The notes beneath the pieces are model-generated. The model made no database searches and was not told where the DNA came from. It worked only from the letters and a program-made list of their open reading frames with translations. A stretch of 64,000 nucleotides of DNA from Cytophagales bacterium. Its GTDB lineage: Bacteria; Bacteroidota; Bacteroidia; Cytophagales; Spirosomataceae. The position numbers and the translations under genes were made by a program. Shown here piece after piece: positions 2,505 to 44,745 of this stretch. The stretch covers positions 1 to 64,000 of the forward strand of contig JAAFJP010000027.1 of the NCBI GenBank assembly GCA_013298125.1, in the 5' to 3' direction. How positions within the stretch are numbered: position 1 is the stretch's first letter; the number at the start of each line of letters is the position of its first letter.

Positions 2505-5500
2505 ATGGGAAAGCCGCTACTTTACTCATTTTTTAACGCTAAGACTGCGTTTAGTTCTCGAACATCTGATTTTTCGGAGGTTCAGAATAATCCGTCTGTG
2601 AGTGTAAATTCAAGGTTTCTTCAAGGAAAACTATACACTTTACTGATAGCGTTTTTGTGTTCTTTTATTTCAATCCATGAAATTTCTGCACAGACCGCTT
2701 CCAACATTTGTCCCGCTACAACGGTCAATTTAATGACCAAAATTGATAGCACGACAAAACCCCTTGGAGCAATCGTAACTTGGCATACAGGTACACCCGC
2801 AACGGCTCTCAACCGAGTCTCTAATCCCACCGCAGCCTTGGCAGGAACGTATTATGCGACCTACTATGATGGCGTAGCGATGTGTTATGGTGGTACTGTT
2901 GGACCTTTAACGGTTACAATTAATTCATGTATTCCAATGAATTATACTAACGTCTGTCCATTAGCTTTTGTGGATTTGATGTCCAAGGTAGATAGTACCG
3001 CAAAACCCGTAGGGAGTTTTGTGTCTTGGCATACAGGTACACCCGCAACCGCTGCCAATCGTGTAGCGAATCCTTCTATGGTAGGGACTTCGGGTGCATA
3101 CTATGTAGCTTATTTTGACCCTATCAGTAATTGTTATGGTTCAACATCAGTAGCGGCGAATGTTACCATAAATACTTGTCCTCCATCAGTATTTACCTTG
3201 ACAAATACGTGTCCATCGACAACCGTCAATTTGAATACAAAAGTTGATAGTACCTCAAAACCCGCAGGGACGTTTGTCTCATGGCATACAGGTACACCCG
3301 CAACCGCCGCTAACCGAGTAGCGAATCCTACGGCGGTGGGGACTTCTGGTTCATATTATGTAGCTTATTTTGACCCAATCAGTAATTGTTTTGGTGGTAC
3401 ATCATCGGCATTGACTGTTACTGTAACGGTTTGTACACCACCTTTGGCAATTGTTCAACCAACTCCAACGACAAAAACACCAAACACACCAGTTACAGGA
3501 ACAGCCCCAACGGACTTAACGCCAACGGGAGGCGTAGGAACTTTGACGTATTCGGATGGTACAAACGACCCTCTTTGTACAGTACCATCAGGTTCATTGG
3601 CGTTGCCAGTGAGTAGCAACTTAACGGTGAATGCAAGTACAGGAGCATATTCATACACAACTCCTTCGACCCCAGGAACTTATGTTTTCTGTATCAAGGT
3701 TTGTGACAGTGCGACACCAACACCAAATTGTGTTTTAGGAAAATATACGGTGACAGTTCCGTCAAGTCCTTTGGCAATTGTTCAACCAACACCAACGATA
3801 AAAACACCAAACACACCAGTTACAGGAATAGCCCCAACGGACTTAGTACCAACGGGTGGAACGGGAACATTAACGTATTCAGATGGAACAAATGACCCTC
3901 TTTGTACAGTACCATCAGGTTCAACAGCATTGCCAGCAAGTAGCAACTTAACGGTGAATGCAAGTACAGGAGCATATTCATACACAACTCCTTCGACCCC
4001 AGGAACTTATGTTTTCTGTATCAAGGTTTGTGACAGTGCGACACCAACACCAAATTGTGTTTTAGGAAAATATACGGTTACAGTTCCGCCAAGTCCTTTG
4101 GCAATTGTAACGCCACCAACACAAACAGGTTTACCAAATACACCAAAAACAGGCATAGCCCCAACGGACTTAACTCCAACGGGTGGAACGGGAACTTTGA
4201 CGTATTCAGATGGAACAAATGACCCTCTTTGTACAGTACCATCAGGTTCAACAGCATTGCCAGCAAGTAGCAACTTAACGGTGAATGCAAGTACAGGAGC
4301 ATATAGCTACACAACTCCTTCGACACCAGGGACTTATGTTTTCTGTATCAAGGTTTGTGACAGTGCGACACCAACACCAAATTGTGTTTTAGGTAAATAT
4401 ACGGTTACCGTTGCTCCACCGCCTTGTAATGCAGGAACAACAGCTTTAACTTTAACAGGAACAGCCCAATCAAACGTATGTCCAGCCACAACGGCAGATT
4501 TAAATTCGATGGTATCTGGAACGTGTCCAGTAGGGTCAAGTATAGAATGGCATACAACTAATACAGGATTGAGTGCAGCTACGACGGTTTTGACTCCAAC
4601 GGCAGTTTTGGCAGGAACGTATTATCCTGTGTGTCATGATGTTACGAATATGTGTTACAGTCCTGCCCCTTACGTAGGCGTAACCGTTACGATTGTAGCA
4701 CCATGTCCAACGACATCAATTGTTAAAAATAATATTTGTCCAGCTACAACGGTTAATTTATTGACCCAAGTAAATATCACGACGGCAATTCCAGTAGGTA
4801 CAACGGTTTCGTATCATACGGGTACACCCGCAACGGCAGCCAATGAGGTAGCAAGTCCAAGTGCTGTAACGGCAGGGTTTTATTATGTAGCTTATAAAGA
4901 TGCCGCAAATAATTGTTACAGTCCTACGGGAACGGCAATCCAAGTAATTATTAATGGTTGTCCTCCTTTGACTCCGATTGCGAAGACGAATATTTGTCCA
5001 GCGACTTCGGTTAATTTATTAACGCAAGTAAATCTTACGACAGCTTTACCAGCGGGTACAACCCTTAGCTGGCATACAGGTACACCTGCAACGGCTGCCA
5101 ACGAAATCGCAAACCCATCAATTGTAACGGCGGGTATTTATTATCCTGCCTACAAAGATGCAGCGAATAATTGTTACAGTCCGACGGGTAATCCGATACA
5201 AGTAACTATCAATGCTTGCCCTCCATTACCACCAATTGCTAAAACCAATATTTGTCCAGCTACGACGGTTAATTTATTGACCCAAGTAACTTTAACAGTG
5301 CCAGTACCTCTTGGAACGACAGTTTCATATCATACAGGTACACCTGCAACGGCTGCCAATCAAGTGGCTAATCCATCAAGTGTGGGTGCGGGGATGTATT
5401 ATGTAGCGTATAAAGATGCTCTGAATAATTGTTACAGTCCAACAGCACCAATTCAAGTAACGATTAATACTTGTCCAGTGGTAAATATCAATTGCCCAAA

Positions 5501-31395: not shown

Positions 31396-31752
31396 TTAAA
31401 TATTCACGCTAAAATGCTCGTCAAAATTCAATTTTCTACGTCTGGATGCAAAAATTTTGTAATTATTAGTCATTAGTACCTCCCCAATAGTCAGATTATA
31501 ACTCTTTAAGTGTTTGCCATTTATCAAAAAAGCTCGATGAATTCTGTGAAACTGGTAACAGCCTAAGGCTTTTTCAAAGGTTTTTAAAGTTCTTGCGATG
31601 GTGATTTTCTTACCATTTTGCAAATGTAAATGCGTATAGTTTTCTTCTGCTTCAAGGAGGATTATTTCGGAAAGATGAACTCTAACTTTATTTTTGAAAA
31701 GAATTAGATAATCATCTTTAACTGTTTCGAATTGATAAATTTTTGATTTCAT
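31396..31752 (-). CDS. LytTR-family DNA-binding protein (118 aa)
   Basis: Almost the whole protein is a single LytTR DNA-binding domain: HLSEIILLEAEENYTHLHLQNGK, ARTLKTFEKALG, FHRIHRAFLING and a C-terminal NYKIFASRRRK segment. There is no receiver domain, so it is a stand-alone regulator rather than a complete response regulator. LytTR domains bind direct-repeat DNA sites and usually control extracellular or envelope functions. It sits between a secreted propeller protein and a lipoprotein, with gaps of 37 and 25 bp, so it is probably co-transcribed with them and may regulate that operon (inference). Confidence 0.88.
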   Translation of the reverse strand: MKSKIYQFETVKDDYLILFKNKVRVHLSEIILLEAEENYTHLHLQNGKKITIARTLKTFEKALGCYQFHRIHRAFLINGKHLKSYNLTIGEVLMTNNYKIFASRRRKLNFDEHFSVNI

Positions 31753-34472: not shown

Positions 34473-37400
34473 TTAATTTTCTGGGAAGTATTTTTTTATG
34501 AGAGATTTATACTGTTTTGTTTGGCGGATATTATCGAATGCTTTTGTTTCATCTAAATCTCTAAGACGATAATCTAACCATTTATTTTTTGTTTCATAGT
34601 CATAGATATATTTCTTACTTAGTGCCTTTTTTAGCCAGTATATGGCATTATTTACATCACCTTCCTCTGAGTAAAATGCTGCCAATAGGAAAGAATTACT
34701 CGTTAAGGTCTCATAGCGTGTATTTTCTTTTACTAATTTTATGGTATTTTTTATATCATTTTTATATTTTGCTGAAAATACAATTTGTGGAATATTCTGA
34801 TAGCTTGGATTAATCTTGATGGCTTTTTGATAATAAAGATATGACCAGAGGTAGTCTCCTAAGTTATCTGTTTCCCTTAAAACTAAATGTGCGTAGCACG
34901 ACCCCAATGTTACGTAAGTATCTATCAAAAGGTATTCATTGCAACTTGTTTGAAGGTTAATGAATACCCTTAAATTATCAATTGCATCATCAAATGAATC
35001 TTTATTAATAATATTTAAACCACTATTATGATGTGAAAGACCTAACCAAAAGTATGACTCAGCATAGTTTGGATTAAAGTGAATTGCCTTTTGGAAAAAC
35101 TTAATAGACTTTTCATAGTCTTTCAATCCAAAATAGCTTTTTCCAAGACCTAAATAGACCATTTCAGCGGTAGAATCAATATTAATTGCTTTCTCAAATA
35201 GTTTTATAGCATCACTATACTTTTGTTGTTCATTCAGGGAATTACCCCAATTATAGTATGCTTTATTATAGAGACTGTCTAATGATATTGCTTTTTGATA
35301 ATGTTGATTAGCAATATCATATTTTTTTTGGCGGTTATACTGTAAAGCTAAATTATTGTAAGTTCTTGCATTATTTGGGACTAATCGTAAGTATTCATTG
35401 TAGTTATCAATAACTTTTTTATCATTTCCTATTAACTGATTTAGATAGCCTAATTCAAAATAATTTTCAGATAACTTACTGTATGACTGTATAACTTTGT
35501 CCAATTTTTCTATATTTTGCCTAATAATTTCCTTTTGGACTTCATTAAGAAAGGTAGCTTGTTGGAACGCAATCGTGTTATCTTTAACTTCCAAATGCAC
35601 TTTCATAGCCTCTATTCTTGGATAATCAAATTGAGTTTTTTCTAACAAATTTAGTGCTACTTGGAGTTCTTGAATGGTCGTTTTAATTTCATTATTTTGA
35701 TTATTCTGTTTCAACTTATCCCCTAAAAGTGATAAATTTCTATCCTCAATTTCTAAAAAATAGTGATTCGCCTTAATCTGTAATGCCTGAATCAAATTAC
35801 TTTTTAAGAAATCTTTACCTTCTTGATATTCAGGGATAGAAGGTATCTTTTCAAAATAATATAAAGCACAATCGTTTTCAGGAAGTATAAGATTGTTTTT
35901 TTCAAAAGCTGACTGAAAAAACTCGTAATTTTTTTTTGTGGCATTATCAGCTTTGTATTTTGCTTGTTTTAAGAGTTTGTCGATTACAACATTTTTATCA
36001 TTAGTAAAATCAGAATAATCTATTTCTTCTTTAATAGTTCCAGAAATAACATCAGCAAGGACAAAATCTTTATTCCCCCTAACTTCTGGATTCTGTTTTG
36101 AATTAAATTTATTGACTTTATCCTTTATATATTTTTCTACTTCTCCGAGGGTTACAATATTGTTTTTCTTCTCCCCAGCCTTTATTCCATCCGCTAATCC
36201 TTGTAATCCTTGAATCAGATAATAAGAGAAAAGACCACGACCCCCGCCAAATTTGTCAGATTCTTTGGATATTTCATTTGGTTGACATGAAAGAATTTTA
36301 ATAAAATTTCCCCAGTCATCATTTAATTGTAATGCTGTAACCTTTTGCCCTTTTTCACCACCTACTAAACCTCCTGCATGACAAGCGTCTGCAATAAAGA
36401 TTACTTTTACTTCTTTCTCTTTGCGGATATAATCTTCAAAAATATTCTTTAATTCTGATAATTTCAAAAAGCCTGAACCGCTTGATTTAAAATAGTTTCC
36501 ATTAGGAGAATCATGGAGAAGAAGTAAAGTTTCATCACCTGATTCTGTATCTCCATGACCTGCAAAATAAAAATATACTCTATCATGCGGTCTCAAATCT
36601 TTCTTAATATTAGTCAGTTTGTTCATAATATTAGACCGTAACGCTGTTGAATCCGTAAACAAGTGAATATTCTTTTGTGGAATTTTAAGATTATGTAAAA
36701 GATACCCAGCAAAATAACTGGCATCTTTATCTGCATAATTCAAATCCTTAATATTTTCATATTCCGACACCCCAATAACCACAGCATAAGTTTCTCCTTT
36801 TGTTTCAGACTCATTTTCAGTATCAAGAATAAGGTCGTTATAGTCCCCTCTATTTTGAGATTGTTTAATTTTTCCTCCAAAAACCTCTTTATCATAATCT
36901 CCTTCAATGGTTGGAACTTGTTTTTTTGAAGTTGCCCTCATTGTTTGTTTTACATTATCAAATAACTGCGAATAAGTCGCTCTCGCATTCATATTATTCA
37001 AAGCCCAAGCCACAGAATAAGATAACCCTCCAACATTTTGACCATTTTTTAATTTGAATTCATAACTTCTGTGTTTATCATCAGAACCCGTAAATAAAAC
37101 ATATTTTCCAAGACCAATTGGCTTATTATCTACTTTCAATAAATCATAATAACCTGAAAAATTTATGCTACCTTCTGCATTTATGGGTGTACGTTCGCCT
37201 ATTTGGTTACCTCTGTCTCTATCGCCAGTACCGGAGTAACAGCAATCTAAAATCAGGAATATTTCACCGTTTTCACCTACTTTTTGTCTAAGTTCTTTAA
37301 TCCATTTTCCTATATCATCGTCTATTATTAAGGAAGATTTTACATTTTTAGCGTTGGTAGTGAAGGCATCATAAGGTACTATTGCTTCATCTTTTCCATC

Positions 37401-37739
37401 GGTCTCATTGTTACTACCTTCTATCTGATTTCCATGCCCGGCATAGTGAATAACTATAATATCATCTTTCTTTGCTTCATCTTTTAATTGTTTAATTTTT
37501 TGTAATATTCCATCCTTTGTAGCTTTATTATCATAGAGACAGGAAATACTACTATCATTAAAACCCTGATTGATTAAAGCGTTTTTTATAAAGATTGAAC
37601 TGTTAAGTGAAGATTTTGATTCCCATGAATTGGAATATTTGTAGTCACTAATAGCGATAAGTAAAGCCTTTTTATTTTGTGAAGAGCCTTGGATAGTGAT
37701 AAAAATAAAGCTCCAAAGTAGCATTAGTGATTTTTTCAT
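34473..37739 (-). CDS. Exported tandem double-caspase (peptidase C14-like) protein with TPR repeats (1088 aa)
   Basis: An N-terminal signal peptide (MKKSLMLLWSFIFITIQGSSQ) predicts export. Caspase domain 1 spans ~23-290: KKALLIAISDY, YAGHGNQ with His102, and ILDCCYSG with Cys167. Caspase domain 2 spans ~315-570: YAVVIGVSEY, FAGHGDTESG with His395, and ADACHAGG with Cys453. Both His/Cys dyads are intact, which is unusual for tandem copies. A helical linker follows, then TPR repeats from ~735 to the end (YNNLALQYNRQKKYDIANQ, YYNWGNSLNEQQKY, YLGLGKSYFGLKDYEKS). The caspase/metacaspase family cleaves proteins; prokaryotic members often cut after basic residues (family knowledge). It is the last gene of a tight operon after sigma-like and anti-sigma-like genes, with a 3-bp gap. 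A proteolytic signalling effector in the periplasm is inferred. Confidence 0.92.
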   Translation of the reverse strand: MKKSLMLLWSFIFITIQGSSQNKKALLIAISDYKYSNSWESKSSLNSSIFIKNALINQGFNDSSISCLYDNKATKDGILQKIKQLKDEAKKDDIIVIHYAGHGNQIEGSNNETDGKDEAIVPYDAFTTNAKNVKSSLIIDDDIGKWIKELRQKVGENGEIFLILDCCYSGTGDRDRGNQIGERTPINAEGSINFSGYYDLLKVDNKPIGLGKYVLFTGSDDKHRSYEFKLKNGQNVGGLSYSVAWALNNMNARATYSQLFDNVKQTMRATSKKQVPTIEGDYDKEVFGGKIKQSQNRGDYNDLILDTENESETKGETYAVVIGVSEYENIKDLNYADKDASYFAGYLLHNLKIPQKNIHLFTDSTALRSNIMNKLTNIKKDLRPHDRVYFYFAGHGDTESGDETLLLLHDSPNGNYFKSSGSGFLKLSELKNIFEDYIRKEKEVKVIFIADACHAGGLVGGEKGQKVTALQLNDDWGNFIKILSCQPNEISKESDKFGGGRGLFSYYLIQGLQGLADGIKAGEKKNNIVTLGEVEKYIKDKVNKFNSKQNPEVRGNKDFVLADVISGTIKEEIDYSDFTNDKNVVIDKLLKQAKYKADNATKKNYEFFQSAFEKNNLILPENDCALYYFEKIPSIPEYQEGKDFLKSNLIQALQIKANHYFLEIEDRNLSLLGDKLKQNNQNNEIKTTIQELQVALNLLEKTQFDYPRIEAMKVHLEVKDNTIAFQQATFLNEVQKEIIRQNIEKLDKVIQSYSKLSENYFELGYLNQLIGNDKKVIDNYNEYLRLVPNNARTYNNLALQYNRQKKYDIANQHYQKAISLDSLYNKAYYNWGNSLNEQQKYSDAIKLFEKAINIDSTAEMVYLGLGKSYFGLKDYEKSIKFFQKAIHFNPNYAESYFWLGLSHHNSGLNIINKDSFDDAIDNLRVFINLQTSCNEYLLIDTYVTLGSCYAHLVLRETDNLGDYLWSYLYYQKAIKINPSYQNIPQIVFSAKYKNDIKNTIKLVKENTRYETLTSNSFLLAAFYSEEGDVNNAIYWLKKALSKKYIYDYETKNKWLDYRLRDLDETKAFDNIRQTKQYKSLIKKYFPEN

Positions 37740-37742
37740 GCT

Positions 37743-38513
37743 TTAAAACCTAAGATTATAAAAGAATATACCTTTTTCTAATGTAGCTAACATTTCGTTT
37801 GCCAACTGCCCGTATTCATGATTTTTTATCTTGATTATACTTCTAAGTTGTTCAATTGCCATAGTCCTATCATTTGTTTTCAGATACGCTAATGCTAAAT
37901 ACCATTGTGCATTTTCTTGAATAAAAGTATCGGAAGAATCCAAACTGAGGGGTTTCAATACCTCAATTGCTTTATTATTGGTATTTAAAGCTAAAAGGCT
38001 TACACCTTTGTATAGATTTTCACAATTGGTATTTGATTTATTTTCAATCAATTTAACAAATTTCTCATACTGTTTTTGTCTATATAAATTTAATAAAATG
38101 GGGTCTGGACAAGCATTTTCATTAGCTCCCAAACCTTCATCAATTTGATACTCAATTGAGTTTGAAATTTTGGATAAATTATTTGACTCCCACACAACTC
38201 CCCCCACAACCACCAACACACAAGCCGCTGCCACATACACCCACATACGCTTGTATAATGGAACTACCTTTTGAGGGGTATTTGTTTCTTGCATAACAGG
38301 CTCATAATCAGGTACTTTCTTGGTAATAATCTCCCGAATTTTATACTCAAAACTAATCTCTTCCAGAGCATTCAGCATGGGGCTTAATTCATCAAATTTT
38401 GCCTTTAATTCGGGTTCATTGTTGAGCCTGTCTCTGAAACGCTCCTCTCTGTTTGGCGGAAGAAGCCCCTTTAAATAGCCTTGAATGTCTCGTATGTCTT
38501 TGTCTGAAAGCAT
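37743..38513 (-). CDS. Membrane-anchored anti-sigma-like protein with TPR-like C-terminal part (256 aa)
   Basis: The N-terminal ~85 residues are soluble and helical (IRDIQGYLKGLLPPNREERF, LNNEPELKAKFDEL), in the style of anti-sigma-factor cytoplasmic domains that start with a Y/L-G-L-P motif. No zinc-binding Cys/His set is present. One strong membrane helix (WVYVAAACVLVVVGGVVW, ~91-108) follows. The C-terminal ~140 residues are TPR-like helices (LYRQKQYEKFVKLIEN, LYKGVSLLALN, AQWYLALAYLKTNDRTMAIEQL), predicted to be periplasmic. It lies 3 bp after the sigma-like gene and 3 bp before the double-caspase gene. The role as a transmembrane switch holding the sigma factor is inferred from position and topology. 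Confidence 0.8.
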   Translation of the reverse strand: MLSDKDIRDIQGYLKGLLPPNREERFRDRLNNEPELKAKFDELSPMLNALEEISFEYKIREIITKKVPDYEPVMQETNTPQKVVPLYKRMWVYVAAACVLVVVGGVVWESNNLSKISNSIEYQIDEGLGANENACPDPILLNLYRQKQYEKFVKLIENKSNTNCENLYKGVSLLALNTNNKAIEVLKPLSLDSSDTFIQENAQWYLALAYLKTNDRTMAIEQLRSIIKIKNHEYGQLANEMLATLEKGIFFYNLRF

Positions 38514-38516
38514 TAT

Positions 38517-39551
38517 TTATTGGGTTTGGAGTTTCATTAATCTGCGTAATTCTTCCAAACATTTAGGATGTTTATTATCAATTGTACCCGCTACTATCCC
38601 TATTTCTTGGGCAGTTTCTTTACTTGTTTGTCCATCACCAAACTTACCCCCAAAGTATTTACTATTGATGATTTTCTTGCAAGTGTCGCCAAGTCTATCA
38701 ATTGCTCTTCGTAATCTGAATTTTAAATCCTCAAAATCATAAAAATCGTTGATTTCATCAATACTTCCACCCAAAATTGGATAATTATCGCTCAGTCCTT
38801 CTACTTCTCTTCTGGCTATTCTCGTTCTTCTCCTTACTTCATCAATCCATTTATGATGACAAATCTCAATAAAATAGGTAAAAATTGTTGCTTTCTGTTG
38901 CTTGTCGGTATCAATAGGTCGCCATTCATAAAAACCAACGATTATGGGTTTATGGGGTATTATTTTTAATCGTTTACTGAAAGAACTAAAAGCGGTACTC
39001 CAAGTAGCATCTGAGTCCTCTTTTGTTCCATTTCTTGACTTAATATAATGCTCAACTGGATGTTCTGTTTTTTCGTGTAATTCAATAATGGCTGAATTAT
39101 TATTTGATTCTATTTTTTTATAAATACTTCCCGCAAGGTCAAAATCGCCACTGCTTTCAGCCGTTTTCAAATCTTTAATTTCTTTGTCCTCAAAATGCCA
39201 GCTTTTTATACGACTCGTAATATTATCATACACCAATTGCACCTCATGGCAACGTTTGGAAATTAATCTTAAAAAGTAAGGATTATAAATCTCTTCTAAA
39301 TAAAGTAAATAATCTATAATAGGCTGTTTGTCAGAGCTTTGCAATAATAATTCTAAATCTTCTTCTTCTTTTTCTTCTAATAAATTACCATAATTTATAA
39401 TTAGTTTGTTGTATATAGTTTGAATATTTTGACCCAATAACTGATTATTTTTTATCTGTTTAGCGTAGCCGTAAGCCATGTAATTTGCATAAGGCAAATC
39501 TCCAATAATTGCCCCTTTCAATAAACTGGTATAAAGTATTTCTTCGGTCAT
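38517..39551 (-). CDS. Sigma-70-like (ECF-type) regulator with long N-terminal extension (344 aa)
   Basis: The C-terminal half carries sigma region 2-like sequence (KATIFTYFIEICHHKWIDEVRRR, ~221-243) and a region 4-like helix-turn-helix (FRLRRAIDRLGDTCKKII ... TSKETAQEIGIVAGTIDN ... CLEELRRLM, ~283-340). The first ~200 residues are an acidic, helical extension (KEEEDLELLLQSSDK) that ordinary ECF factors of ~180 aa do not have. Its start codon overlaps the histidine-kinase stop by 4 bases (ATGA), a sign of translational coupling. The following anti-sigma-like gene is 3 bp away, a standard sigma/anti-sigma arrangement. The regulon cannot be read from the window. Confidence 0.78.
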   Translation of the reverse strand: MTEEILYTSLLKGAIIGDLPYANYMAYGYAKQIKNNQLLGQNIQTIYNKLIINYGNLLEEKEEEDLELLLQSSDKQPIIDYLLYLEEIYNPYFLRLISKRCHEVQLVYDNITSRIKSWHFEDKEIKDLKTAESSGDFDLAGSIYKKIESNNNSAIIELHEKTEHPVEHYIKSRNGTKEDSDATWSTAFSSFSKRLKIIPHKPIIVGFYEWRPIDTDKQQKATIFTYFIEICHHKWIDEVRRRTRIARREVEGLSDNYPILGGSIDEINDFYDFEDLKFRLRRAIDRLGDTCKKIINSKYFGGKFGDGQTSKETAQEIGIVAGTIDNKHPKCLEELRRLMKLQTQ

Positions 39552-41383
39552 GTTGGTAGGTTTTTTAAGTCAATTTTCAACAAAATAATTGTCCCATTTC
39601 CAGGGCTACTCTCAACGGTTAGTTTGCCTTTTAGTTCAGTTTCGGCTCTGAATTTTAGGTTTTTTAGACCCATCCCCGCCTTTCGGGTTTTGTTCATATC
39701 AAAGCCGATTCCATTGTCATCAATCCTTAGTCTGAGTTCTTTTTCGTCTTTACTGAGGTCAATCCCAACCTCTGTAGCTCTGGCGTGTTTTTCGATATTA
39801 TGAACCGACTCAGTAATGATTCTAAATAGATTTTCAGCCACAAAAGGGTTAAGATTTAAAGGTGTTTTAGGCAATGATAATTTATAAGATGGGTCATAAT
39901 TATGCTCGTATAGACTTATTAATTCGCTAACTAAGTCCTTGTTATTTAGAGAGTTCGTACTTAATCTATGAGGGATTTTCATGAGATTTTTATAAACATC
40001 ATCTAATTCATTTACTTTCTCTTCAAAGGTTTTTGAGGCATTTTCAGTAGTCGATTTTTCACTCAAAAAATTACTAAAAAATTTCTTTATCTGTAAAATA
40101 TCATGCCCTATTTCATCGTGCAAATCTCTCGCAATGCGTTTGCGTTCTTCGTCTTGAATGATGGTTTCTGACTCAAAAACTTTACGACGGGCTACTTCGA
40201 GGTCAGAGCGTTCTTGTCGGAAACGATACACAATGCCAATCGTCAAAAAGAACATTTCTACAAAAGTTCCTGCATAAAATAAATCGTGTACCGTCTGTAT
40301 CGGAATCCCGCTATAATCAGACATTACGTCTAAGGTGCTAATGAGTACGATAGGGGCAGTTGCCGCCAAAAAAAACCACGAAGGCGAATATTCTTTCTTG
40401 ATACTGACAAACAAGTGATAATAAGTAATGACGGCATTGACTGTAATTAAAGGATAAAACAGATTTCGAGCATAATAAAGCACCTCCCCAAATCCAATAA
40501 ATCCGATGAGAAGTACACACATCATAATCATTGTAATTCTACTTACTTTAAAAAACCACGAAGGCTTCTGAGTATCTACTTTTAAATATTGTTCTGCTAA
40601 GAGTAAATAACTCATATTGGACAAGCACAAAAAGGTAGCAAAAGCATTTTTATTTCTGACAAATTCGGGTAGTTTTTCAAAAATGAAATAGGTAAAATCG
40701 TTATAACAAAAGGCAATTCCAAACGACCAAACCAAGCAAAAGAAGTAGTACAAATACAGCTTCTCTCTGTAAAAAACGAAAAGAATAAAACTGAAAATCA
40801 TCATCAAAAACAAACAACCGAGGTAGGTATTATAAACTATTTCCCCTTTTTTGACTATCAGATTGGTCTCCGAAGGATTTGCCACCATCAAAAAAGGTAA
40901 TGATAAATGGTAGGCTTCGTTATAAATCCTGATGTAAACCGTCGTGTTCCGTTTAGGTTCAAGATTTACAGGAATTACCAAATATTGGCTGGCAACAAAC
41001 CTCTCAGATAACGGTACAACTCTTCCAGTATGAAAACTATTGAGTTTCCCTGCACTATCTGCCCACAAAACATTCAAACTATCAATCCCTTTGGTAATGA
41101 TTCTGACGGGAATTGTAGCATTACTTTTATTATAAAAAACAGTCTTCAACCATACCGCTTTTACGTGTTTTTCAAAGGCAATTGGAATGGCTTTTGTATC
41201 GTTCCAATCCTTGATTTGTGATAGAATTTTATAGTCTTTTATGGGATTTTTTTCTTCAGAAAATGCCCACTGAGCTGTCATTTCGTTAGTTTTGAACAAT
41301 GAATCAACTTGTACAATTGACTGAGCCAGCGTACTAAAAGATGAGATTAAAAACAGAAATACGACCCGTAAAAATTTTATCAT
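39548..41383 (-). CDS. 7TM-DISM sensor histidine kinase, NarL/HisKA_3 type (611 aa)
   Basis: Signal peptide, then a periplasmic 7TMR-DISMED2-type domain (~30-165, including VWLKTVFYNKSNATIPVRII and YIRIYNEAYHLSLPF). Seven transmembrane helices (~183-390) follow. A short coiled coil leads to the HisKA_3 box ERKRIARDLHDEIGHDIL with phosphoacceptor His422. The ATPase part has an N-box-like ITESVHNIEKHA, IDDNGIGFD and a GMGLKNLKFRAE glycine-rich lid. The periplasmic domain family is thought to bind carbohydrate-like ligands. It lies 104 bp downstream of a NarL-type response-regulator gene, its probable partner, and overlaps the sigma-like gene. This links a two-component input to the sigma/caspase cassette. 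Confidence 0.92.
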   Translation of the reverse strand: MIKFLRVVFLFLISSFSTLAQSIVQVDSLFKTNEMTAQWAFSEEKNPIKDYKILSQIKDWNDTKAIPIAFEKHVKAVWLKTVFYNKSNATIPVRIITKGIDSLNVLWADSAGKLNSFHTGRVVPLSERFVASQYLVIPVNLEPKRNTTVYIRIYNEAYHLSLPFLMVANPSETNLIVKKGEIVYNTYLGCLFLMMIFSFILFVFYREKLYLYYFFCLVWSFGIAFCYNDFTYFIFEKLPEFVRNKNAFATFLCLSNMSYLLLAEQYLKVDTQKPSWFFKVSRITMIMMCVLLIGFIGFGEVLYYARNLFYPLITVNAVITYYHLFVSIKKEYSPSWFFLAATAPIVLISTLDVMSDYSGIPIQTVHDLFYAGTFVEMFFLTIGIVYRFRQERSDLEVARRKVFESETIIQDEERKRIARDLHDEIGHDILQIKKFFSNFLSEKSTTENASKTFEEKVNELDDVYKNLMKIPHRLSTNSLNNKDLVSELISLYEHNYDPSYKLSLPKTPLNLNPFVAENLFRIITESVHNIEKHARATEVGIDLSKDEKELRLRIDDNGIGFDMNKTRKAGMGLKNLKFRAETELKGKLTVESSPGNGTIILLKIDLKNLPT

Positions 41384-41487
41384 TTTGTGTTATGTGTTGT
41401 ATGAAATTAAAATTAGAAAATTTTGCCTTTAAATAACTGATAATCAATTAAATACACAAATAAGTCCTAACTTATAATCTCTAACAC

Positions 41488-42156
41488 CTACTGTAAATAT
41501 CCATGCTTCGTGGCAATCATCACCAAGTTTGCGGCAGTTTTTGCCCCAAATTTTTTCAATAGTGTATCTCGATAATCTCTTATGGTATTATTAGAGAGGT
41601 TCATTTTATTGGCAATTTCTCGGCTGGTGATACCATCTGCAATATATCTCAATAATTTTCTCTCACGGTCATTAATCACAATTGCTTCTGCATCGTCAGG
41701 GAAGGTCATTTTTTTGAATAGATTTTTTTCGATATATTCTTTTTTATCCCACGCCACCGCTCTAATGGCTTCTCTAAATTCTTGGGCTTCAACTTTTTTA
41801 CTCAAATAACCTTTTGCCCCTTTTGCTTTTGAATTTATGATGTAAGTTGGTGCTTCTTCACCTGATAAAATAATGGGTAAAATGTCTATTTTATTTTCTT
41901 TGATAAAATCCAAAATCTCATAACCTTTCAAAAAAGGGTCTTCATTTAATCTATTATTGGGAAGTTGTAAATCCAAAATAATTACGTCAAAATGAGTCAT
42001 TTGTAATTGTTCTAAAACCTCTCGAACAGTGCTTGCCGTTTTTAGAATACTGAAATCTTCGGAGTCTTCTAAATACTTTGAAAAACTGTCGATGATAGCA
42101 CGATGGTCTTCGGCAAACAAGATTTTTATAGGGCTATTTGACTGATTAATTTTCAT
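41488..42156 (-). CDS. NarL/FixJ-type response regulator (222 aa)
   Basis: The receiver domain (~9-130) has the acidic pair in FAEDHRA (Glu16, Asp17), the phosphorylation site in VIILDLQLP (Asp62), the Ser in ILSGEE and the Lys in YLSKKV. The C-terminal LuxR-type helix-turn-helix reads DRERKLLRYIADGITSREIA and NLSNNTIRDYRDTLLKKFGA. This pairing of receiver and LuxR HTH is the standard partner of HisKA_3 kinases. The kinase gene directly downstream (104 bp) is the obvious cognate. It is probably the transcriptional output that turns on the kinase-sigma-caspase genes or their targets. Confidence 0.93.
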   Translation of the reverse strand: MKINQSNSPIKILFAEDHRAIIDSFSKYLEDSEDFSILKTASTVREVLEQLQMTHFDVIILDLQLPNNRLNEDPFLKGYEILDFIKENKIDILPIILSGEEAPTYIINSKAKGAKGYLSKKVEAQEFREAIRAVAWDKKEYIEKNLFKKMTFPDDAEAIVINDRERKLLRYIADGITSREIANKMNLSNNTIRDYRDTLLKKFGAKTAANLVMIATKHGYLQ

Positions 42157-42266: not shown

Positions 42267-42881
42267 TCAAAAATCTATTATGATAGAGCCGTTCTTAGTA
42301 TAATGTTGAAACTTTTGCTTAAATATTTCTATGGATTTTTCAGAGGTAATATCAAATAAATGAAGCGTTTTGGGGTCTTCGATATATTTCCACATCAGGC
42401 TATTTTTGCGTAAAATAGGCTTTTGGTCAATATTATTCATGGGCAATTCTATTTTAGCGAAAAAATTAAAAATATGGTCTTTAATCGTTGCAACCCAGCC
42501 TTTAATTTGTTTTTTTTCAAGGTAAAAAGCGATACCCAAAAACAACGAAATCACGACTGTTAGATGTTGTTTGCATTCATCAGAAGTAGCAAAACGACCA
42601 ATTTCAACGTAATCGTTTTTTTCATTTAAGACATTCTTCAATTTGAATCCAAACGAAGATTCACAGGGGAATTTGTCTTCTTCGGGGTACATAAAACTGA
42701 GCGTACCCAGCACTTTCTGATTTTCGGGAGATACGGCTATCAGAACTTCGTGCCTAAATTTTCGACCTTTTAACTTGTTGATATCCAAACCACCAAAACA
42801 CTTTTTGTAAACTTTTCTTACTAAATCATGAGCTTCCAAAATCTGTTCTGGACTCTCCGCTAATTTGATTTGTATTTGCAT
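42267..42881 (-). CDS. GNAT-fold acyltransferase, N-acyl amino acid synthase (FeeM)/autoinducer synthase-like (204 aa)
   Basis: The protein has the order seen in FeeM-like and LuxI-like synthases: an N-terminal segment (LVRKVYKKCFGGLDI), a beta strand with VLIAVSPENQKVLGTLSF, then EIGRFATSDECKQH, the hallmark E-x-x-R/K-F-A region of this group, and a helix (VISLFLGIAFYLEKKQIKGWVATI). Its length fits the family. Such enzymes join an acyl chain from ACP or CoA to an amine substrate. It is a single gene with its own terminator, upstream of the response-regulator gene. A perfect hairpin abuts its start codon. The substrate is unknown and the assignment rests on motif order alone. Confidence 0.65.
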   Translation of the reverse strand: MQIQIKLAESPEQILEAHDLVRKVYKKCFGGLDINKLKGRKFRHEVLIAVSPENQKVLGTLSFMYPEEDKFPCESSFGFKLKNVLNEKNDYVEIGRFATSDECKQHLTVVISLFLGIAFYLEKKQIKGWVATIKDHIFNFFAKIELPMNNIDQKPILRKNSLMWKYIEDPKTLHLFDITSEKSIEIFKQKFQHYTKNGSIIIDF

Positions 42882-42981: not shown

Positions 42982-43650
42982 TTACTTTATTGGATTCCCA
43001 TTCTTTAAACTCATTTTAGGAAATAACAACCCCGTTTTTTTACAATACTGAATATATTTTTCTCCAAAATGCTTTGTCAATAATTTCTCTTCCTGTGTAA
43101 TTCTATGCCAATACGTAAGAGTAATTAGTCCCAAACAGATTACAAAAACATTCCATGCTTCCAACCAAATAAGCGTTCCAATCATCGTACAAATAGCCCC
43201 TGTATAGCTTGGGTGTCGTATTTTACCATAAATGCCTACATCGACAATCTGATGTCCTTCCTTGATTTCGGTAATATTACTGAAATAATAAGCGAGTTTT
43301 TTGATAGCATAAATCCTCAAAGCCATTCCACCCCAAATCATTCCGAAGCCTACAATTGAGGAGGTACTGATTGAAAATTTATGAGTCGTTTTTAACGCCC
43401 ATTCAACCACGGCGAGGTTGTGGATGATAATTGCCATCCCCAAAATACCTAGCATAGAGTATTTATCATCTGGATTCAATAAATCAGATTTACTCATGGG
43501 AGGTTGCGTGCTAAACAATACAACGAGGGCTAAAATGACACCCCAAATCTGGATGTCATTGACAATAGAAGGATTCACGATAAACCCCGAACCAATTAAG
43601 ATTCCGATGGTTAAAATGATTGAAATGGAGGATTGAATTTTCTTTTTCAT
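42982..43650 (-). CDS. Isoprenylcysteine carboxyl methyltransferase (ICMT)-like integral membrane protein (222 aa)
   Basis: About six membrane helices are visible, and the C-terminal half carries the family signature: YGKIRHPSYTGA (the R-H-P motif), then EEKLLTKHFGEKYIQYCKKTGLLFP. ICMT/PEMT-like enzymes methylate small or lipid-linked substrates with S-adenosylmethionine in the membrane. Bacterial members usually have unknown substrates. It stands alone, ~100 bp upstream of the FeeM-like gene in the same direction, and could share a transcript with it. No feature shows what it methylates. Confidence 0.85.
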   Translation of the reverse strand: MKKKIQSSISIILTIGILIGSGFIVNPSIVNDIQIWGVILALVVLFSTQPPMSKSDLLNPDDKYSMLGILGMAIIIHNLAVVEWALKTTHKFSISTSSIVGFGMIWGGMALRIYAIKKLAYYFSNITEIKEGHQIVDVGIYGKIRHPSYTGAICTMIGTLIWLEAWNVFVICLGLITLTYWHRITQEEKLLTKHFGEKYIQYCKKTGLLFPKMSLKNGNPIK

Positions 43651-43788: not shown

Positions 43789-44181
43789 TTATTGAACAGC
43801 AATTTGACGGCTTACTGTTGTGGGTTTAGTCGTTACCAAGTTTACTTCTTTTACTATGGTTTCATTACCTTTTGAAAACTCAAAGGTATATTTTCCATCC
43901 TCTAATTCACTCATGTCATACTTTGCATGATAGCTTTTATCTTTCTTACCTACATGGTCTGTTACTAAAATTTCTCCTTTTGAGTCCTTTAGAACAACGG
44001 TCAAATCCTTATCTGTTGATTTTTCAATTAACACGTTCATTTTCAATGAGTTCACACTCTGGTACATTCCAACATCAAAGGTTTTTGCTTTGGTTGGGTC
44101 GGCGTTTTTATCGCCTGCGTTAGAGATAAAAGAGAGGGCGGACAAAGCTGCGATTGCGAAAGTTTTTGCTAATGTTTTCAT
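43789..44181 (-). CDS. Small secreted protein, paralogue 1 (130 aa)
   Basis: Signal peptide MKTLAKTFAIAALSALSFISNAG, then a compact beta-rich domain: FDVGMYQSVNSLKMNVLIEKS, LTVVLKDSKGEIL, SYHAKYDMSELEDGKYTFEFSKGNETIVKEVNL. The pattern recalls DUF3244-type small secreted proteins and the Ig-like fold of T9SS C-terminal domains, but no passenger domain is attached. It is closely related to the upstream gene at 44353, a tandem duplication. Each has its own long 5' region and start. Function unknown; a periplasmic or extracellular role is inferred from the signal peptide. Confidence 0.82.
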   Translation of the reverse strand: MKTLAKTFAIAALSALSFISNAGDKNADPTKAKTFDVGMYQSVNSLKMNVLIEKSTDKDLTVVLKDSKGEILVTDHVGKKDKSYHAKYDMSELEDGKYTFEFSKGNETIVKEVNLVTTKPTTVSRQIAVQ

Positions 44182-44352
44182 TTTCTTATTTGTTTAGAAA
44201 TTGTTGTTTAAATTTTAAATAACGTTTAGAAATACTATTAAAATATTTGTGCCAAAATATTAAATAATTGGTAGTCAGTGATTTAGATATTTATTTTGAA
44301 AATAAGATTGTTCGTTTTTGATACAATCATTGTCCACTTGTGAACATTTTAC

Positions 44353-44745
44353 TTACTCAACCACAATCTGACGATTACTTTCAGTTGGTGTTTCAGTAGC
44401 TAAGTTCACTTCTTTTACAATTTTCTCGCCGCCTTTAATAAACTCAAAAGTATATTTTCCATCTTCCAAACCACTCAGGTCAAACTTACCATGATACTTC
44501 TTTGAATTCTTGCCGATTCTTTCCGAGTAAAGTTCCTCACCACTCTCATTTTTCAAAACAACTGTCAGATTAGCATCTGTATTTTTTTCAATCATAACGT
44601 TCATTTTCAACGTATTTATGGATTGATACATTCCTACTTCAAAAGTCTTTGATTTAGTAGGAGCAACGCCACGATTCGAAGCGTTTGAGATAAAAGTCAT
44701 GGCAGACAAAGCTGCAATTGCGAAAGTTTTTGCTAAATTTTTCAT
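44353..44745 (-). CDS. Small secreted protein, paralogue 2 (130 aa)
   Basis: Same length as paralogue 1 (43789-44181), which lies downstream on the same strand, with matching architecture: signal peptide MKNLAKTFAIAALSAMTFISNAS, then VGMYQSINTLKMNVMIEKN, LTVVLKNESGEEL, LSGLEDGKYTFEFIKGGEKIVKEVNL, and a similar end (SNRQIVVE against SRQIAVQ). The two diverge mostly in charged surface positions and in the segment after the cleavage site. The 171-bp gap between them is AT-rich and probably holds a promoter for the downstream copy. No domain name beyond DUF3244-like can be supported. Confidence 0.82.
   Translation of the reverse strand: MKNLAKTFAIAALSAMTFISNASNRGVAPTKSKTFEVGMYQSINTLKMNVMIEKNTDANLTVVLKNESGEELYSERIGKNSKKYHGKFDLSGLEDGKYTFEFIKGGEKIVKEVNLATETPTESNRQIVVE

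Follow-up and report, generated by a model that had tools for sequence, protein, structure and literature searches.

Here we report a cassette of five genes at positions 34473..42156 of a 64,000-nucleotide stretch of DNA, hereafter the window, from Cytophagales bacterium of the family Spirosomataceae (assembly GCA_013298125.1, contig JAAFJP010000027.1, positions 1-64,000 of the forward strand). Judged by gene order, its genes for a sigma factor, a membrane anti-sigma-like protein and an exported protein with two caspase domains are a recurrent unit, not a chance arrangement. Similar arrangements are found in further genomes, and we therefore regard the cassette as a real system. In our tentative reading of these sequences, which we hold to be possible though somewhat short of probable, the exported caspase would act on the anti-sigma and thereby release the sigma factor, forming an envelope-to-transcription switch around a membrane-held sigma factor resembling the extracytoplasmic function (ECF) type. 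Two further genes, FEE and ICM, probably belong to the cassette, which would make the unit larger than five genes. The features considered are as follows (aa, amino acids; TPR, tetratricopeptide repeat).

34473..37739, minus strand: exported protein, 1088 aa, with caspase domain 1 (H102/C167), caspase domain 2 (H395/C453) and TPRs
37743..38513, minus strand: anti-sigma-like protein, 256 aa, with an N-terminal part, a transmembrane segment at about residues 90-108 and a predicted periplasmic TPR-like part containing Cys135 and Cys164
38517..39551, minus strand: ECF-like sigma factor, 344 aa, with an N-terminal extension of about 153 aa followed by the sigma core (TIGR02937)
39548..41383, minus strand: 7TMR-DISM sensor kinase, 611 aa (Pfam 7TMR-DISM_7TM 4.1e-21, DISMED2 7.8e-10, HisKA_3 1.4e-5, HATPase_c 2.6e-11)
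41488..42156, minus strand: NarL-type response regulator (RR), 222 aa (Pfam Response_reg 9.9e-18, GerE 2.1e-13)
42267..42881, minus strand: FEE, FeeM-like putative N-acyl amino acid synthase, 204 aa (PF21926, 28.9 bits, cut-off 27)
42982..43650, minus strand: ICM, ICMT/PEMT-like membrane methyltransferase, 222 aa (Pfam ICMT 2e-15, PEMT 1e-15)
31396..31752, minus strand: LytTR-only regulator, 118 aa (Pfam LytTR 2.7e-17), weakly indicated as a possible associated part

Gene order of the cassette in related genomes

The positions of the five genes, the 4-base overlap of the kinase and sigma genes (39548-39551) and the gaps of 3 bases between the sigma and anti-sigma genes and between the anti-sigma and caspase genes all agree with the description in an earlier note on this DNA; the RR and kinase genes are 104 bases apart. 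The caspase gene is the last of the tight run, the next gene on the minus strand beginning 151 bases further on, and a scan for Bacteroidota-type promoters revealed none that was convincing directly upstream of the cassette.

The order sigma factor, anti-sigma, peptidase C14 (caspase) was found in the window and in nine relatives (G398, G462, G437, G454, G569, G578, G446, G572, and G460). G398 retains the entire order from ICM through FEE, RR, kinase, sigma factor and anti-sigma to the caspase, G479 retains it as far as the anti-sigma gene, where the contig ends, and G462 has the sigma, anti-sigma and caspase genes without a labelled kinase or RR. A gene order confined to this genome, which the earlier note had named as fatal to its proposal, is thus not what is observed. 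The same note had let an envelope signal pass through the kinase, or through TPR contact, to the anti-sigma; such a part for the kinase is conjectural, and the regions retrieved for six of the nine relatives (L055, L146, L147, L149, L151, and L152) contain no labelled kinase. Supported in its scheme is the sigma/anti-sigma/caspase unit, which recurs in relatives and in which both the protease and the TPR part of the anti-sigma are predicted to be periplasmic. Gene labels were assigned with models of the window's own proteins together with one CHAT protein and one sigma factor from G462, and distant relatives may escape them. Open reading frames (ORFs) were called mechanically by script with some wrong starts (L145, L147, and L151), so that export of the proteins at these loci was judged by eye or not at all.

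The sigma factor and its anti-sigma-like partner

By its profile matches, the window sigma factor has an ECF-type core comprising regions 2 and 4. The NCBIfam model TIGR02937 matches residues 221-338 with 45.3 bits (cut-off 42.9), and a sigma model built in this study spans residues 154-336; Pfam region 4 taken alone gives 0.065, below its cut-off. Because the full sigma model begins at residue 154, the N-terminal extension measures about 153 aa, shorter than the roughly 200 aa previously claimed. Near full-length sigma matches are present in three of the 200 family genomes besides its own, namely G479 (41%), G398 (39%), and G462 (25%). Across 395 genomes of the phylum, the non-self matches listed are mostly confined to the core (residues ~209-341), with the exceptions, among those listed, of G375 (93-339, with internal stops) and G042 (36-154). 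The match of G042 to the extension was set aside, its gene context being unrelated.

The anti-sigma-like protein has one hydrophobic segment (residues 90-108) followed by weak Pfam matches to TPRs, and we infer that the part preceding this segment is cytoplasmic. The NCBIfam anti-sigma model NF052375 matches with 5.3e-6 and 26.6 bits, well under its cut-off of 100. Searches of this protein against the PDB gave no match named Csx30, in a copy that was not checked for the full Csx30 chain, and the profile matches were TPR and other unrelated chains. Single-sequence AlphaFold2 models of the anti-sigma and the sigma factor reached a mean predicted local distance difference test score (pLDDT) of 48.4 and 35.2, respectively, both too poor for a fold search.

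Two types of caspase domain in one exported protein

Peptidase_C14 (PF00656) matches the exported protein with 4.4e-36 over two stretches, next to TPRs, and the motif positions place an intact His/Cys dyad in each, H102/C167 and H395/C453, as the earlier note had described; by this evidence the window protein is a caspase-type peptidase of the C14 family. Within its own genome, PF00656 at E <=0.001 matches this gene only, as two stretches in one frame. The N-terminus, MKKSLMLLWSFIFITIQGSSQ, is hydrophobic and of the export type, as judged from hydropathy and by eye rather than by a signal-peptide program. The EACC1-type caspase model NF047832 gives 85.7 bits against a curated cut-off of 140, and on this model the protein is not assigned to the EACC1 systems. 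A contig search with the caspase protein as query returned a single locus, an uninformative TPR match in a metagenome-assembled genome of Planctomycetota.

A tree was built from 46 of the 59 caspase domains found, those from clusters with FHA and PP2C genes being thinned to three. Domain 1 groups with 11 other caspases (12 rows, 97/91), 10 of which come from anti-sigma loci, the one from L202 being the exception. Domain 2 groups with four small caspases from L156, L162, L163, and L172 (5 rows, 95/90), and these four regions all hold a sigma/anti-sigma pair, with three to five genes between. As nearly all loci were fetched by anti-sigma or sigma factor, the link of these domains to the anti-sigma is not independent evidence. 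The split of the two window domains into different groups is, within this tree, an independent result, although long branches make the placement of both uncertain. Since its domains fall into different groups, the window protein appears to have arisen by fusion of two caspase types. This split, like the upstream FEE and ICM genes, had been missed in the earlier note. The other domain-1-type proteins scanned (L053 and L147) showed DUF4384 below the Pfam cut-off, no second caspase domain and no TPRs. All 12 caspases aligned from the domain-1 group retain both His and Cys. Degenerate caspases were considered for L147, L149, L151, and L152 and ruled out, as the alignment has the His (GHA) and the Cys (DxCHSQ) there.

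Anti-sigma proteins near CHAT and C14 proteases

A profile of five rows built for the anti-sigma matched 166 of the 200 family genomes and 205 of the 395 phylum genomes; C14 was found in 122 and CHAT in 126 of the 200 family genomes. We counted neighbourhoods among the matches listed, which comprise 149 anti-sigma, 150 CHAT and 151 C14 places. Among these, 69 of the 149 anti-sigmas lie at most 5 kb from a CHAT (57) or a C14 gene (12, the window included), compared with about 0.4 expected under a rough uniform model (~0.0014 per anti-sigma for each), and 56 of the 150 CHAT places lie at most 5 kb from an anti-sigma.

The anti-sigma loci that were read, chosen among the highest-scoring matches, hold 104 anti-sigmas in 44 loci of a first set and 58 of a second, independent set (L250 and L264, of the 60 in the second set, had no anti-sigma passing the filter and were excluded). 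A C14 or CHAT gene occurs within the stretch read (~5-17 kb, or all 64 kb in the case of the window) for 88 of the 104, and for 49 a CHAT gene, or a C14 gene of at least 290 aa, is at most three genes away. The arrangements include sigma-anti-sigma-C14, sigma-anti-sigma-C14-CHAT (L147, L149, L151, L152, and L164), CHAT alone, and a convergent FHA/PP2C/caspase/kinase cluster. Of 11 anti-sigma loci read outside the family, seven neighbour a CHAT gene (L174, L175, L177, L179, L181, L182, and L183), and L184 has a C14 gene adjoining the sigma gene. In six of six aligned CHAT domains, one His and one Cys column are invariant, presumably the catalytic pair. Searched against the PDB, a profile of CHAT domains from anti-sigma loci reached CHAT-protein chains, which we take to be those of Craspase, without attaining significance (E 0.19-0.29).

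The anti-sigmas with a C14 neighbour are further marked by a pair of periplasmic Cys residues, present in 10 of 13 whose C14 neighbour is long and at most three genes away, versus three of 91 others. L054 holds one of the three Cys-pair anti-sigmas without a nearby C14 gene, and its contig stops before the place of the caspase.

Two kinds of locus deserve separate mention. L155 (869-7565) carries a cluster of FHA, PP2C, small caspase, Ser-Thr kinase, TPR and PKD-laminin G genes convergent with a sigma/anti-sigma pair, and similar loci are L150, L153, L156-L159, L161-L163, L168, and L171 (domains were scanned in L155). L165 (7384-11646), on contig C34 of the window's own genome, has a second pair of sigma factor and TPR anti-sigma, with an exported-looking TPR-CHAT protein on the other strand.

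A proposed switch and its alternatives

In the switch that we propose, the N-terminal part of the anti-sigma would tether the sigma factor to the inner membrane, and the exported caspase protein would contact the periplasmic TPR part of the anti-sigma via its own TPRs. An envelope signal would activate one caspase domain, possibly through the other, and the activated domain would cut or destabilise the anti-sigma, which further proteases would finish, thus releasing the sigma factor. The role of the kinase and RR would probably lie in setting cassette expression, not in acting on the anti-sigma, and the probable product of the FeeM-like/ICMT-like pair is a lipid sensed by the kinase or by the caspase part. 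That the caspase would cleave the anti-sigma is what we infer by analogy. The predicted location shared by the two proteins, the kept dyads and the co-occurrence of the Cys pair with C14 together speak for the two as partners, with the caspase acting on the anti-sigma.

Several observations weigh against this partnership. The anti-sigma call depends on the weak match to NF052375, and its N-terminal part had no match among solved structures in the PDB searches. Among the matches listed, only 12 of the 151 C14 places lie at most 5 kb from an anti-sigma; of 20 loci picked by their caspase (L185-L204), only L201 has an anti-sigma, and for the domain-1-type caspase of L202 none was found. The Cys-pair pattern may merely reflect common descent, and the sole C14-linked case of the independent set (L266) lacks the pair. 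A cleavage site was also sought in the linker. The abstract of PMC6426788 describes cleavage after positively charged residues, which prompted the hypothesis of an Arg-Gly site, and the initial 45 anti-sigmas had drawn attention to an Arg-[Gly/Glu/Asp] motif in the linker, a possible P1-Arg site. In the first set, 16 of 21 protease-linked versus nine of 25 unlinked anti-sigmas had it (p 0.009); in the independent set the numbers were 10 of 15 versus 23 of 43 (p 0.55), and the motif was rejected as a discriminator. The window anti-sigma lacks it, and many of its relatives carry a basic linker residue.

The lack of this basic residue in the window protein would suit a distinctly improbable alternative, in which TPR-TPR contact alone alters the conformation of the anti-sigma and the protease has another substrate; the TPRs of both partners are predicted to lie in one compartment. 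Retention of His and Cys throughout the domain-1 group speaks against it, suggesting that catalysis matters for something.

An explanation that we consider unlikely, though well worth weighing, makes the caspases and CHAT proteins outputs of the system. Ordinary envelope proteases would then free the sigma factor, which would autoregulate its operon, and the periplasmic protease would process or degrade envelope proteins, attackers or the cell itself. The caspase gene does stand at the end of the tight run, and the sigma/anti-sigma pair is constant across loci whose partners vary (C14, CHAT, both, or the FHA/PP2C/caspase/kinase cluster). The partner CHAT gene is on the opposite strand at some loci (e.g., L165, L173, and L175), so that co-regulation fits as well as partnership, and the PADLOC "caspase" model for candidate defence genes also matches the window protein (1.2e-26); both observations count against the caspase acting on the anti-sigma. 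Arguing against a mere output are the pairing of C14 with the anti-sigma Cys pair, the presence of TPRs on both partners, and the finding that both caspase types joined in the window protein occur in regions with this anti-sigma family.

The FEE-ICM pair and the two-component genes

The window FEE scores above the Pfam cut-off for FeeM and is classed with it on this profile; five of seven aligned FEE members match FeeM at E <=1 (best 8.1e-10), and a seven-row FEE profile found no relative in the PDB. FEE is present in seven of the 200 family genomes and is adjoined by ICM in all seven. A caspase gene lies at most 4.6 kb from FEE in all six readable loci (the window, L053, L145/L215, L212, L213, and L214, the last with a 200-aa piece), the contig of G479 ending too early to reveal one. 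The FEE loci include a kinase in six of seven and an RR in five of seven cases (fragmented in L214), and extra residues after the phospho-acceptor strand are common to the RRs of five FEE loci (the window and four others) and absent from the RRs of L164 and L179. The sigma/anti-sigma pair occurs at four of the seven (the window, L053, L054, and L145).

This distribution would fit a core of FEE, ICM, kinase, RR and caspase, in which a self-made lipid signal and a two-component system control the exported caspase, with the sigma/anti-sigma pair added locally. We hold such a core to be improbable: no kinase is seen at L212 up to the contig end, L215 has no RR, the genes of L214 are in pieces, and the one further FEE match in 194 genomes of the order (G676, weak, 3.8e-4) lacks a labelled caspase, kinase and ICM.

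As a separate observation, the FEE locus of L214 (5706-12311, genome G453), with its kinase, regulator and caspase genes in pieces, is apparently decaying. LytTR-like ORFs resembling that of the window lie in the FEE loci L212, L213, and L214 (in L214 also by Pfam) and the caspase locus L146, but in L167 and L186 too. Upstream of ICM, at 43789-44745, the window encodes two tandem, highly alike 130-aa proteins with export-like N-termini, and at 2505-23391 it contains two ORFs that are very long, at 3790 and 3002 aa.

Comparison with known systems

In regulated proteolysis of the RseA/DegS type, as in the switch proposed for the window, a one-segment anti-sigma with a periplasmic part holds the sigma factor. 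The protease gene beside the window pair encodes a caspase and not a DegS-type protease, the rest of the genome not having been searched for DegS. Proteolysis of the RseA/DegS type is also mentioned in PMC10028731, which supports a model for Craspase in which cleavage of Csx30 by the TPR-CHAT protein Csx29 lifts the inhibition of CASP-sigma. The window resembles the system described there in encoding a TPR-bearing protease of the caspase superfamily with an ECF-like sigma factor and its putative inhibitor. It differs in that its protease is a C14 peptidase, not a CHAT protein, and is predicted to be periplasmic, beside an anti-sigma with one transmembrane segment, whereas Craspase acts in the cytoplasm; CHAT genes adjoin the same anti-sigma family elsewhere. 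No CRISPR gene was found among the nine proteins of the window scanned with Pfam. Within the literature surveyed, with subscription papers and preprints outside its scope, the CHAT domain is named together with a sigma factor in papers on Craspase and, otherwise, in papers that mention each term once; more detailed searches gave none. The pairing of exported protease and anti-sigma may be a wider background for the Csx30/CASP-sigma module. A more elaborate version, quite unlikely as a whole, would have an N-acyl amino acid methyl ester made by FEE and ICM reach the kinase and RR as a self-made, quorum-like signal, upon which these raise the cassette, and a periplasmic cascade of two caspases cut the TPR anti-sigma to free the ECF sigma, a lipid-signalled periplasmic switch whose exported CHAT or C14 proteases and TPR anti-sigmas would constitute a phylum-wide, CRISPR-free counterpart of Craspase.

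Genes for caspases and sigma factors have been described together before. The predicted metacaspase/sigma-70 operons of the Myxococcus type (PMC3501461, 2012), from Myxococcus, Anaeromyxobacter, Haliangium, Sorangium, Ralstonia, and Fibrobacter, likewise pair a caspase homologue with a sigma factor, and section 13 of that report makes no mention of an anti-sigma, a CHAT counterpart or FeeM/ICMT genes. The EACC2 systems (PMC8195603, 2021) place a caspase in a neighbourhood with an ECF sigma factor and a TPR gene (DUF1822); the window layout differs in its anti-sigma and export-type N-terminus. EACC2 was not named in our Pfam and NCBIfam scans, libraries that were not checked for an EACC2 model.

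The FEE-ICM pair bears on a different class of molecules. PMC11580390, on Roseovarius, states that previous studies had found no candidate synthase genes for acyl amino acid methyl esters. FEE matches Pfam FeeM, and an ester of this class would result if ICM methylated an acyl amino acid; from these sequence relations, FEE-ICM is a concrete candidate for their synthesis.

To our knowledge, the function of most bacterial caspase homologues is unknown. The abstract of PMC3501461 says much the same. The recurrent pairing of exported C14 or CHAT proteases with a membrane anti-sigma points to a role that can be put to the test, the regulated release of a sigma factor.

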